Positions 20,474 to 29,982 of a stretch of DNA of 64,000 bases are shown here, piece after piece. The notes under the pieces are model-generated. The model saw nothing but the letters and a program-made list of their open reading frames with translations. It ran no database searches and was not told where the DNA came from. The DNA comes from Saururus chinensis. Lineage: Eukaryota; Streptophyta; Magnoliopsida; Piperales; Saururaceae. The translations under genes and the position numbers were made by a program. The stretch's first letter is position 1, and every line of letters begins with the position of its first letter. The stretch spans positions 1,922,001-1,986,000 of the forward strand of contig CP141140.1 in the NCBI GenBank assembly GCA_035235625.1, read 5' to 3'.

Positions 20474-20500
<27 letters not shown>
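20474..20500. repeat. (TA)n microsatellite, left of foldback copy 1
   Basis: About 13 TA units immediately abutting GGAAAAAG, the left end of the first foldback element. Confidence 0.95.
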
Positions 20501-20702
20501 GGAAAAAGTTAGTATGAGCCCGGGCGTACGCGCACCGGCATGCGCCCGGGCTCAATAGGCCGTCAGATTTACATCCGACGGCCTATCAAACTCACGGGTT
20601 AAAATGCCCCGTGAGTTTGATGGGCCGTCGGATGTAAATCCGACGACCCAATGAGCCCGGGCGCACGCCGGCGCGCATGCGCCAGGGCTCATACTAACGG
20701 GA

Positions 20703-20705
<3 letters not shown>
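20501..20705. mobile_element. Foldback MITE copy 1 in a TA microsatellite
   Basis: 205 bp, almost a perfect inverted repeat: arms 20501-20598 and about 20607-20705 with a loop of about 8 nt. Each arm contains a smaller GC-rich palindrome (GAGCCCGGGCG ... CGCCCGGGCTC) and a second one around GGCCGTC ... GACGGCC. Non-coding. TA repeats flank both sides, so the target-site duplication cannot be read. The placement recalls Micron-type MITEs of rice, known to sit in (TA)n tracts. The ends are related to those of the 8.9 kb element to the right. Confidence 0.85.

Positions 20706-20762
<57 letters not shown>
20706..20762. repeat. (TA)n microsatellite between foldback copies
   Basis: About 28 TA units separating the two foldback elements. 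Confidence 0.95.
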
Positions 20763-20764
<2 letters not shown>

Positions 20765-20964
20765 AAAAAGTTAGTATGAGCCCGGGCGTACGCGCACCGG
20801 CATGCGCCCGGGCTCAATAGGCCGTCAGATTTACATCCGACGGCCTATCAAACTCACGGGTTAAAATGCCCCGTGAGTTTGATGGGCCGTTGGATGTAAA
20901 TCCGACGACCCAATGAGCCCGGGCGCACGCCGGCGCGCATGCGCCAGCGCTCATACTAACGGCA

Positions 20965-20967
<3 letters not shown>
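20763..20967. mobile_element. Foldback MITE copy 2 in a TA microsatellite
   Basis: Same length and orientation as copy 1, with only about four or five base differences seen by eye (GGCCGTTGG for GGCCGTCGG in the right arm, GCCAGCGCTC for GCCAGGGCTC, and small changes at the last bases). Such close identity with matching flanks points to a recent segmental duplication, perhaps by unequal exchange between TA runs, rather than two insertions. Confidence 0.85.

Positions 20968-21031
<64 letters not shown>
20968..21031. repeat. (TA)n microsatellite between foldback copy 2 and the 8.9 kb element
   Basis: About 32 TA units. The next base starts the left end of the large element (GGATCCCGTTTATAAACG). 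Confidence 0.95.
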
Positions 21032-21033
<2 letters not shown>

Positions 21034-27104: not shown

Positions 27105-27640
27105 AGAAAACTATCCATAAATAAACTAACTTGGACTAAGATACAAGAAACAAGTTCACTAAAAAAAGGGACTGTGCAGCCATTGCAAGCACCAACTCAT
27201 TTCAATAAAACTAAAAACAACCATCAATGCATAGAAAGATGTCCATGAGTGAGTGGCATCTAAGGGAGACTCTACATTCTCATACAGATATTGAACACCT
27301 AGTACAGAGAAGGTCAAACAAAAACATTCATTAAAACATATGTATGAAGAAGATTAGAGCAAAATCCTAAAAAGCAGATTGACATATGTAGATGCTATTC
27401 CATTTTCGCAAACCCATATAAAAAAAAGTGAGGAAACTGTTTAACAGTAAATAGAAAACAAGAAATACAGTCACATCTATAACAAAAATCACAAAGAAAA
27501 GAAAAATAACAAAAATCAGAGAAAACCATTACTGGCTTAAACGTCAAGCATCTGAATCAGCATAAATGTGATGTTCACACCAACAATTTCCTGTCAATGG
27601 GTATTCACACATGGAGCAAGAGTAAACAAAATTCAACCTT
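27105..27640 (-). pseudogene. ELMO-domain gene fragments, copy 1 (rearranged)
   Basis: On the minus strand, 27640-27545 contains a CAG-free exon-like start GAATACCC and then, one frame over, VGVNITFMLIQMLD, the signature of the plant ELMO/CED-12 domain (EYPFAVAGVNITFMLIQML). A second block, 27200-27105, matches the LQRLQ-containing exon seen in copy 2 (28730-28810) but lies on the wrong side of the ELMO block. This suggests duplication and shuffling. Frame is broken within the EYP segment. Plant ELMO proteins are presumed GTPase-related scaffolds; this piece is not functional. Confidence 0.55.
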
Positions 27641-28631
27641 AACTTATCATTGCAAAAAATCATCAGAAAAAAGAAAAAATCATTCGAATCATCCATGGAA
27701 ACATCGATCAACTGAGCAATTGCCAAACACAAGTGACTGAATAATTTCACAGCAGTCTCATCCATTGATGATCCAAGGCACCTATCTTCTACTTTAACTT
27801 TCGTTTATCCATAGGCTTATGTTGAACCATGTCATGATCATTTAGAGCTGCACCGATAAGTGCAAGAGCTCCCTTGAGCCATGCCGTGATCATTTACCCT
27901 TGAATTAAACAATAAATTGCAATTAGAGCTATAACAAACAACATATTTACTTGTTCAAAACATAAAAGCTCAACTCACATCTTGTATTGCATAGAACCTA
28001 CATTAAAACAATTTACATCCATGAGGGTAGCCACATAGAAGGAAAAATATCTATGCTGATTAACAAACTAACTTCAGCAACCTGCCACAGTTGATGACTT
28101 GAACCCAATATTCAAAGGAAGAAAATTTTGTTGGACAAATTGTCAAAAAATTGCGAGTTTGAGATGACAAGGATCACCACCCAATGCATACATCACAGAC
28201 AGTCAAGTATGCTGATTCAAGAACATGGCTCTACTCTCAAATGCTCAAAATTAAAAAGATGCAGAAAAGGAAATAAAATAGATTATGTGTATGCATACTC
28301 TTGCACCTCTCTTCCGGCAATATGAACTTCCAAGAAATACCCTATGTTTATAAAGGTGAAGGATAAAATCAGTATGATAGAAAACGTGAAGCAAAAATTT
28401 GGAATACAAGGCAGAGCAAATTGATGAAAGTCATGTAAAAGATTGAACATAGAAGCAAGAGGCGAAAAAAATGGCATTGTTTCAGGTGGAATTACTTGAA
28501 CATCATCATTATCATCTTAACCCAATTAATTAGAATTGGAGCATATGCATCTATATATCATTGAAATCAAACAAAGCTGTTGTTAGCTTATGAAAAAATC
28601 TTGAATACCCATCAGACATCTACTAAAGAAG

Positions 28632-28810
28632 GTTGGAATTAGCATAAATGTGATGTTCACACCAGCAACTGCAAATGGATATTCCTGCATGAAGCAATAG
28701 TAAACAAAGTTCGAGGATAAAACTAAACATAAATAAACTAACTTGAACCGGGATACAAGAGTTGAGTCCTCTAAAAACTGGACTTTGTAGTCGTTGCAAG
28801 AACTCCTCCT
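28632..28810 (-). pseudogene. ELMO-domain gene fragment, copy 2
   Basis: Reading down the minus strand, a TTTCAG acceptor precedes EEFLQRLQ, matching the family's EECLQRLQ block, after which the frame is disturbed. About 40 bp later a second CAG acceptor precedes EYPFAVAGVNITFMLI, an almost exact match to the plant ELMO core. The exons that normally lie between (roughly 65 residues) are missing. It is homologous to the two separated blocks at 27105-27200 and 27545-27640. Confidence 0.65.
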
Positions 28811-29119
28811 GAAACACCAAATATGGTCAACATAGTTAATTATTTGATTCGTAAGAAAAAAAGTGAGACGAACCTATATAGGAATAGGACAAAAACATGG
28901 ATACTCTGTATCTTCAATAGTTCAACTAAAGAAGCAAAACTAGCAATATGCAATGATAGAGGAAAGAAAGACAGTGTTTTTACCTCAGTAATTTGCAATG
29001 GAAACTTTCTAAGGAAGGATTGGAAAGGTATGTCCCTCGCATTGTGCATTATAACCCTGACGAGCTACTGACCGACACAGTGTTGTTCTAGAATTTTGAA
29101 AGGATTGTGATGAGCTCGA

Positions 29120-29657
29120 GGAGAAGAGGAGAATATGTCATATGTGTACTCAACGTTGAGAATAATTTTCAGTGTAATACGAAATCAGAGTAAACAAGTG
29201 TATAATGCAAAGAGAAGAAGAAAAGGCAAGTACTTTGGATGTCGTGGAGGGGCATTGGGTGGGAGATGGTAGGATCGGCATTCAAGACAAGGCAGCAGTG
29301 GGGGAAGAGGGAGTCGGGGACATAGCGCATGTGGAGGGTGATGGGGTGGTGGGTTTTGGTGTCGCCACCGATGTGGTTGAACTGAAGGCCCGTGAGAAGC
29401 CTCCACCAGAGCGCTCTTGCCGTCCATCCGGTAGCCCAACACAATCACCGTCGGTGCGTTGAAGGGCACTTGTGAACCTCGTTGTACGCCTCGTACAGCT
29501 TCCTCTGCACCACACTCGTGTAGAGGTCTTTGTCTGCTGCCTCCCTCTCTGCCATCATCACCAACACCTCCTCCCTTTGGAGAAGAATTTCAGACGGGTG
29601 GGGCGGAGCTGGGCAGGGCAGGGTAAGGAACTCAATGGGGCGGGGCCAAGGAAGCAA
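29120..29657 (-). pseudogene. Captured 5' part of a DRP5-type dynamin gene
   Basis: Minus-strand frames give, in family order, LYEAYNEVHK, then PFNAPTVIVLGYRMDGKSAL (the dynamin P-loop, normally VVGHQTDGKSALVEA), then LQFNHIGGDTKTHHPITLHM, ADPTISHPMPLHDIQ, and KIILNVEYTYD near 29170-29135. These correspond to the N-terminal GTPase domain of DRP5A/ARC5 plant dynamins, which act in cytokinesis or plastid division. Consecutive blocks lie in different frames, so there are at least two frameshifts, and everything after the start of the GTPase domain is absent. The 3' boundary is uncertain. Sequence continuing to 28990 is unassigned. Confidence 0.75.
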
Positions 29658-29927
29658 GGAGCTCGATCTTCTCTACCGATCGGCCATGGACGCGCCTTGC
29701 CTTGGACCACGAGACCTGGACAGTGCAGGCAGAAATATGGTGGTTGGTGGGAACTGCCGCAGGATAGGCGGGAAATCTTTTCTGAGGTGAGAACTCTGAT
29801 CGAGCTTTGGTTAAATGCTATAAATGGTTAAGTTAACTTCAACAAATTAACAGCGTTAGATGCCATCCGACGACCCTTCTTTAACTGGGCGCTTATATAC
29901 AATATAAGCCCAGGCTCACGATAACTT

Positions 29928-29932
<5 letters not shown>

Positions 29933-29982
<50 letters not shown>
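29933..29982. repeat. (TA)n microsatellite, right of the 8.9 kb element
   Basis: About 25 TA units immediately after the right end TTTACCC of the large element. Confidence 0.95.

Follow-up and report, generated by a model that had tools for sequence, protein, structure and literature searches.

Within a 64-kb stretch of the Saururus chinensis genome (C1:1922001-1986000, hereafter the window; contigs are given as C numbers and individual loci as L numbers), two 205-bp foldbacks and one gene-carrying element of 8,901 bp lie one after another at 20475-29982, with perfect TA runs at their borders and in between. This locus raises the question of what kind of elements these are, whether they belong together and how they came to lie in microsatellites. 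Drawing on searches that covered the 516-Mb genome in its 11 contigs, we consider the three to be non-autonomous Mutator-like DNA transposons (Mutator-like elements, MULEs) of one extended family that sit side by side in TA-rich sequence, and we put the probability of this whole explanation, including the mechanism set out below, at about 0.92.

The arrangement itself had been proposed in a sequence-only reading of the locus, and both the sequence and a tandem-repeat scan bear it out. The array borders account for all four (TA) tracts of at least 10 repeats in the window, and with a threshold of at least five repeats only two more (of 5 and 9) appear in the 64 kb. Copy 1 of the foldback, folded as single-strand DNA, reached -99.3 kcal/mol (z = -18.6), a value equalled by none of 200 shuffles, and the foldback is an inverted repeat throughout, save for the outermost 7 nt on each side. 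In the 8,901-bp element the terminal inverted repeats are imperfect; aligned over 60 nt, its left and right ends gave a score of 23, when compared to a shuffle mean of 11.0, and none of 500 shuffles reached 23. The GGGAAAAG-type foldback end aligned to the right end of the large element, likewise with a score of 23 and 0/500 shuffles, while the comparison of the other foldback end with the left end of the element was weak over 60 nt (23/500 shuffles reached the score) and rests on the cap G(A/G)(G/A)TCCCGTT. The end alignments, with this weaker one among them, uphold the proposal of related ends and of one family.

Information on the superfamily came from other copies of the foldback. A genome search returned 1,436 candidates, 40 of which were scored, and the 30 best-scoring loci were cut out. 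As L050 and L073 denote a single copy, these amount to 29 distinct copies. The family form of the first 25 bases, which differs by one base from the window copies, occurs exactly at 33 genome sites as opposed to 0 for the reversed pattern. Tracts of (TA)4 or more were present on both sides of 15 of the 29 copies, the two of the window counted, on one side of two and on neither side of 12. Exact 9-bp duplications flush with the ends were found in 10 of these 12 copies without TA flanks, for example TTCACTATT, AAAGTATAA and TTAGAAAAA, and in the two that have none, L069 and L071, the ends are disturbed or lost. L063, which was scored as TA-flanked, also shows an imperfect-TA duplication of 9 bp (TATATATAA).

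In a TA tract the length of such a duplication can be read from parity. In alternating TA, the first and last bases of a duplication are alike if it is 9 bp long and differ if it is 10 bp long, and parity survives slippage as long as whole repeats are gained or lost. Thirteen of the 29 foldback copies qualified for this comparison, each end being directly adjoined by 8 or more bases of pure alternation, and the other 16 did not qualify. The bases adjoining the two ends were identical in all 13 (binomial chance 1.2e-4), two of which, L061 and L072, have altered outermost bases and hence a slightly less certain boundary. Parity at the 8.9-kb element of the window (T/T) and at its relative L043 (T/T) agrees. 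Because the odd-length parity holds in 13/13 copies, the duplication hidden in the TA flanks is most likely 9 bp as well. Comparing two adjoining bases in this way can distinguish odd from even hidden duplications in any genome, and it makes the route of entry into microsatellites, by cut-and-paste or by recombination, testable from sequence alone.

For the large elements we named the left end in the window A, the right end in the window C and the far end of L043 B. The sequence-only reading had proposed to look for a long relative encoding a transposase, and two such elements, of 13.9 and 16 kb, were found with the same end types. The 13.9-kb element (C4:27407653-27421566) is bounded by an A-type and a B-type end and contains a stop-free open reading frame (ORF) of 680 codons (L079), in which the Pfam domains MULE (PF10551; 1.3e-28), FAR1 (3.6e-12), ZSWIM1-3 RNaseH-like (7e-11) and SWIM (6e-5) all scored over their cut-offs; both of its flanks show AATTTTAAAA, a 10-bp duplication as read by eye. 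In the 16-kb element (C4:42283911-42299959), the end pair encloses a relative with 95% identity to the L079 transposase that is open for 760 codons, and both flanks show TTCTAAATA, by eye a duplication of 9 bp, or of 8 bp if an ambiguous A belongs to the element. On C2 and C11, further transposase relatives were found 2.7-2.8 kb inward from B ends: a partial one of 97% identity on C2, where the B end has (TA)6, and one of 93% with two stops on C11, where the end has no TA. On C10, one of 71% identity with seven stops is located 2.8 kb inward from a B end that is damaged. Our general MULE search scored 150 of 2,831 candidates, so that more transposase copies may exist. The ends of the window family and those of the transposase copy on C4 align A to A and B to B (0/500 shuffles each). 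The L079 transposase gave no match to the window or to L042-L047 by tblastn at 1e-3, and no match in PDB.

From the 9-bp duplications and the MULE transposase of relatives with the same end types, we assign the elements to the Mutator superfamily. The traits of MULEs are present: a duplication of about 9-11 bp, terminal inverted repeats, and a transposase in same-ended relatives (none was detected in the window). The superfamily had been called unclear in the sequence-only reading, a statement that does not survive the 10/12 copies with 9 bp outside TA, the parity of 13/13 and the FAR1-MULE-SWIM transposase. The same three observations speak against another superfamily (Tc1/mariner, Stowaway or hAT), represented by a small element of the Micron type with a TA-related duplication of its own; TA flanks taken alone would be compatible with a 2-bp TA duplication, and we nevertheless consider such an origin extremely improbable. 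Tc1/mariner-like, Stowaway-like and hAT-like origins were rejected on duplication length and transposase.

How strictly the family keeps to TA tracts was assessed with the ends of the large elements. The genome holds 23 matches of A, 31 of B and 10 of C, of which 3, 7 and 1, respectively, have no intact end. Among the intact ends, 10/20 A, 13/24 B and 4/9 C ends have a tract of (TA)4 or more no further than 6 bp away, a total of 27/53 that includes the two of the window, compared with 0.17% of positions when 124 kb of sequence from elsewhere served as background; L040 and L041, both C ends, have one flank in common and perhaps represent a single insertion. An inverted B match lies about 9 to 16 kb from the A end in 8 of the 23 A matches. 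Three of these eight A+B pairs (C4:21.2, C4:15.7 and C2:47.2 Mb) have TA on both sides, and two, the transposase-carrying ones with their 9-10-bp duplications, have TA on neither. On C10, a possible further A/B pair has its ends separated by 43.9 kb. Besides the window, no A match has a C match at a distance of 20 kb or less, and the closest such pair is 47 kb apart on C4; for a B-type and a C-type end on C7 with 7.3 kb between them, no match of the flanks was seen by eye. Separately, we observed that L015, L024 and L031 (C2:15826338-15826993) are A-like ends that follow one another in direct order over about 0.65 kb, an arrangement that resembles MULEs with multiple terminal repeats.

The family prefers TA flanks but does not depend on them. 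The idea of TA anchoring holds as far as enrichment at (TA)n is concerned, for 27/53 large-element ends and 15/29 foldbacks, and fails in that some half of the intact ends have no TA tract beside them. Similarly, the idea that the two ends recur as a pair does not hold for the exact A+C combination of the window, which was not found again, whereas A does pair repeatedly with the related right end B (8/23). That copies of the ends occur outside TA tracts with other partners, an observation that the sequence-only reading had named as refuting and that was, taken literally, made here, counts against strict anchoring, not against a TA-preferring MULE family.

Several observations weigh against our explanation. 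The foldback copies that we examined are the best-scoring ones and not a random sample. With 26 of 53 intact large-element ends having no TA flank, the term 'TA-anchored' is too strong, and three of the eight A+B pairs (C9:27.8, C7:3.7 and C11:31.4 Mb) have TA on one side only and no matching duplication by eye. The A+B pair at C4:15.70 Mb (L014, L086) has TA on both sides and unlike adjoining bases, its left flank being too impure for the parity rule. A second copy with the A+C pair of the window was not found among the 23 A-end and 10 C-end matches. Where both flanks of a transposase-carrying copy were read, as in two cases, the copy was found outside TA tracts; the TA preference of the transposase would follow from its presumed partners, which are non-autonomous, and from L085, a single end that is linked to a transposase and flanked by TA. 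Likewise, that the foldbacks are moved by the FAR1-type transposase is suggested by shared caps and duplication length, and the GTCCC end of the foldback matches the A end weakly.

The second question concerns the cargo. The 8,901-bp element carries a piece of a TypA/BipA gene, in keeping with the earlier description of a large, gene-carrying member. Positions 22524-25148 match L078 268-3286 (C4:32350067-32353085) with introns included, in two blocks of 95.3% and 92.5% identity; 25157-25813 match C4:32349134-32349716 in the same direction (88-89%), and 25809-26014 match C4:32339041-32339223, also in the same direction (87-90%), about 10 kb further on, as if the host TypA locus had later been split by an insertion. 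The captured host piece runs to 25813, and probably to 26014, and comprises about 3.3-3.5 kb in the window element; the match of L045, an element with a C-type right part, to the window starts at 26039, near the end of the captured piece. Pfam detected BipA_C on two exons (1.3e-14 and 5e-9), and EFG_III and EFG_C scored below cut-offs on other exons. The 5' part is missing from the window copy, and its frame is broken by several exon length changes; element sequences alone show no effect on host function.

Five loci contain the TypA piece in a search whose 5 candidates were all scored, namely four element copies and L078. In the main block, identity of the window to L078 is 96.1% and to each of L042-L044 98.5-98.6%, while L042-L044 agree among themselves at 99.6-99.9%, and the simplest reading is that genomic DNA was captured before the elements of about 9 kb spread. 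With a host gene piece between MULE ends and no detectable transposase, the 8.9-kb element is Pack-MULE-like. The same piece, in the same place, is carried by three other A-end elements, two of them about 9.15 kb long with flush ends; it is truncated and broken, and one other locus (C4:32.35 Mb) has it outside such elements. On these grounds we give next to no credence to the view that the stretch with gene similarity is simply a host gene that happens to have a small TA-flanked element on either side, a view that could appeal to the window's end pair being unique among the matches found, and it was rejected on the three other element copies. At the source-like TypA locus L078 (C4:32349800-32354799) we also observed that the last-exon region is doubled, and the element copies hold one joined version, which suggests either that a deletion took out what lay between the two or that the duplication at the host locus came later.

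For the right half of the element, single ORFs run against Pfam gave nothing convincing (ELMO_CED12, E 0.0036, below cut-off), with the limit that ORFs were scanned singly and in part, so that small gene pieces could have escaped. Two short stretches near 29.45-29.6 kb that had looked dynamin-like had no match in Pfam or PDB sequences. A donor of the right half, or of any other cargo beyond the TypA piece, was not found; two of several matching stretches on C11 are full of stops.

Have units of this size moved? L043 (C4) and L044 (C9), both about 9.15 kb with flush ends, are 99.0% identical over 9,177 aligned bp, and identity stops at the element ends. A third unit, L042, is interrupted by what looks like another transposon. 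Because L043 and L044 are near-identical from end to end at unrelated sites, gene-carrying units of about 9 kb have moved. The left 6.6 kb of the window element recurs in these three copies, which range from about 9 to 12.5 kb. The window element is about 96% identical to L042-L044 over 21032-27589 and from there to its right end follows the C-type lineage (L045, about 88-92%); 26039-27589 is common to the A-B elements and the C-type lineage, and a 33-bp motif at the switch point is repeated at 28636-28668. The window copy, as judged from these alignments, is a chimera whose right 2.3 kb follows another lineage.

Whether the window unit moved as a whole is a separate matter. No second A+C copy was found and TA hides its duplication, while parity is consistent with movement and the sister A-B units did move. 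A real contender, at somewhat below even odds, is that the 8.9-kb segment never moved whole and that adjacent A-B and C-type elements in one TA array were fused by deletion or unequal exchange, with the outer ends left in place. The split ancestry, with its switch on a repeated 33-bp motif, would be expected from such a fusion, as would the lack of further A and C matches within 20 kb among the 23 A-end and 10 C-end matches, and side-by-side elements are common in such arrays (the neighbour of L043; PMC5907723, in the part available). The T/T parity of the flanks instead fits a single insertion, though half of all cases would agree by chance, and since 26039-27589 is common to L045 and the A-B elements, an exchange within an element before insertion would have been equally easy.

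A non-nested, side-by-side arrangement was seen in two arrays, that of the window and that at the neighbour of L043. The second (L011/L043, C4:21223884-21224160) consists of the A end of a 9.15-kb sister, followed by (TA)42, a small foldback of similar style and (TA)9. The joined flanks of the window array were searched in the genome, and three (L108-L110) of eight diverged relatives were read. A continuous match over both flanks was seen at L108 only (66%); at L109 each flank aligned separately, and at L110 the left flank aligned with nine bases more. The array is absent from all three, and no TA run longer than (TA)3 is present at its position. They would fit an insertion at a short TA site whose tract grew later, and are too diverged to prove the state before insertion.

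Arrays of this kind also bear on the possibility that circular elements were inserted by homologous recombination with microsatellite filler, as proposed for SaTar, and not by cut-and-paste. The non-nested order and the long TA runs resemble SaTar arrays (PMC5907723, as far as the available part goes), and the three A+B pairs with TA on one side and no matching duplication would suit such a route. Recombination between TA repeats does not obviously enforce the parity of an odd, 9-bp-like duplication that was found in 13/13 copies, and we therefore regard this alternative as improbable.

Under the Mutator explanation, a transposase supplied in trans would bind the conserved caps GGG(A/T)AAAGTTA and G(A/G)(G/A)TCCCGTT, excise the element and join it to a 9-bp staggered cut, with TA-rich sites preferred. 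In (TA)n the duplication itself would be TATATATAT or ATATATATA and merge into the tract, which could then lengthen by slippage, and the TA tracts flanking one insertion would offer a target for the next, giving rise to non-nested side-by-side arrays. The host gene piece would have been captured as genomic DNA before the elements of about 9 kb spread, and the window copy may have gained the right end of the other lineage at the shared 33-bp repeat, then or at birth. Going further, we tentatively suggest, with the odds leaning slightly against it, that one FAR1-type MULE system with one asymmetric cap pair moves the 205-bp foldbacks, the gene carriers of about 9 kb and the transposase elements of 14-16 kb, favours TA tracts, and has large members whose entire right ends are swapped with those of a sister lineage within arrays linked by TA. 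If true, this would provide a route for recombining captured gene pieces and parking them in microsatellites.

Features of the TA-linked array in the window (window coordinates)
Feature	Position	Strand	Remarks
(TA)13	20475-20500	no strand	left border of the array; sequence and tandem-repeat scan
Foldback MULE-MITE (miniature inverted-repeat transposable element) copy 1, 205 bp	20501-20705	+	ends GGAAAAAGTT / AAGTCCCGTT; family form GGGAAAAGTT / GAGTCCCGTT
(TA)29	20705-20762	no strand	separates the foldbacks; initial T possibly part of copy 1
Foldback MULE-MITE copy 2, 205 bp	20763-20967	+	98% to copy 1 across the 262-bp direct repeat unit in which both foldbacks sit
(TA)31	20969-21030	no strand	followed by T at 21031, adjoining the 8.9-kb element
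8,901-bp Mutator-like element, non-autonomous, gene-carrying, chimeric	21032-29932	+	
Type A left end	21032-21180	+	GGATCCCGTTTATAA...; 23 genome matches, own copy counted
Subterminal GC-rich tandem repeat	21184-21347	+	unit 39 bp, 4.2 copies; tandem-repeat scan
Captured broken 3' part of TypA/BipA, with introns and downstream DNA	22524-26014	+	matches to the L078 locus, C4
Switch point	27554-27589	no strand	about 96% to A-B elements before, C-type lineage after
C-type right part	27590-29932	+	about 88-92% to L045
Type C right end	29780-29932	-	reading inward GGGTAAAGTTATCG...; 10 genome matches, own copy counted
(TA)25	29933-29982	no strand	right border of the array; sequence and tandem-repeat scan

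Elsewhere in the window, 4300-4450 is AT-rich, contains short TA runs and then TTTATACGAGCCTAGGCTCA, a sequence similar to the family ends, and is perhaps a further foldback; a 54-bp perfect tandem duplication lies at 47003-47110 and a tRNA-Pro (cgg) gene at 54708-54780.

Pack-MULEs are non-autonomous MULEs with gene capture as their hallmark, and a length of about 9 kb exceeds their typical size. Like them, the window element carries an intron-containing genomic piece of a host gene and no transposase, and unlike them the Saururus family prefers TA tracts. The closest parallel in this respect is MuTAnT of Medicago truncatula, for which the available part of the report (PMC4486113) describes short foldbacks, mostly of 200-300 bp, in TA microsatellites, 9-bp duplications outside perfect TA, and a related element (AutoMuTAnT) with a Jittery/mudrA-like transposase, parallel to the transposase relatives found here. 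All but 14 of 218 MuTAnT insertions are in perfect TA, as opposed to about half in the Saururus family. MuTAnT copies reach over 1.6 kb and the published transposase-carrying member 4.9 kb, a length that contradicts the view that TA-targeting elements are known as small ones only, whereas Saururus has gene carriers of about 9 kb and transposase copies of 13.9 and 16 kb; gene capture is not described for MuTAnT in the part of that source at hand. SaTar elements of guayule, rice, sorghum and citrus are likewise non-autonomous MULEs joined end to end via microsatellites, with some 9-10-bp duplications and autonomous relatives (PMC5907723). The non-autonomous SaTar members measure 233-1,900 bp, no large gene-carrying one being described in the available text, and their authors propose a recombination route where parity here favours ordinary 9-bp insertion. 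Ac-mMITEs of pineapple resemble our family in having TA-flanked copies alongside copies with 9/10-bp duplications, and clusters; according to the accessible part of that report a transposase-carrying relative was not found (PMC8449440), whereas several exist here. Micron in rice and TAFT in maize target (TA)n as well, a likeness by description (PMC4486113 and PMC5907723, both in part). Empty sites of TAFT are short TA runs that grow after insertion (cited in the available part of PMC5907723), and a comparable growth of the tract is suggested by L108-L110. Large gene-carrying MULEs that target TA were not found by title or abstract opening among the papers listed in literature searches, which is weak evidence of absence. 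The Saururus family combines TA targeting and gene capture, with members of about 9 kb, and extends the known kind of element: TA-seeking MULEs need not be small, and large gene-carrying relatives use the same kind of sites.

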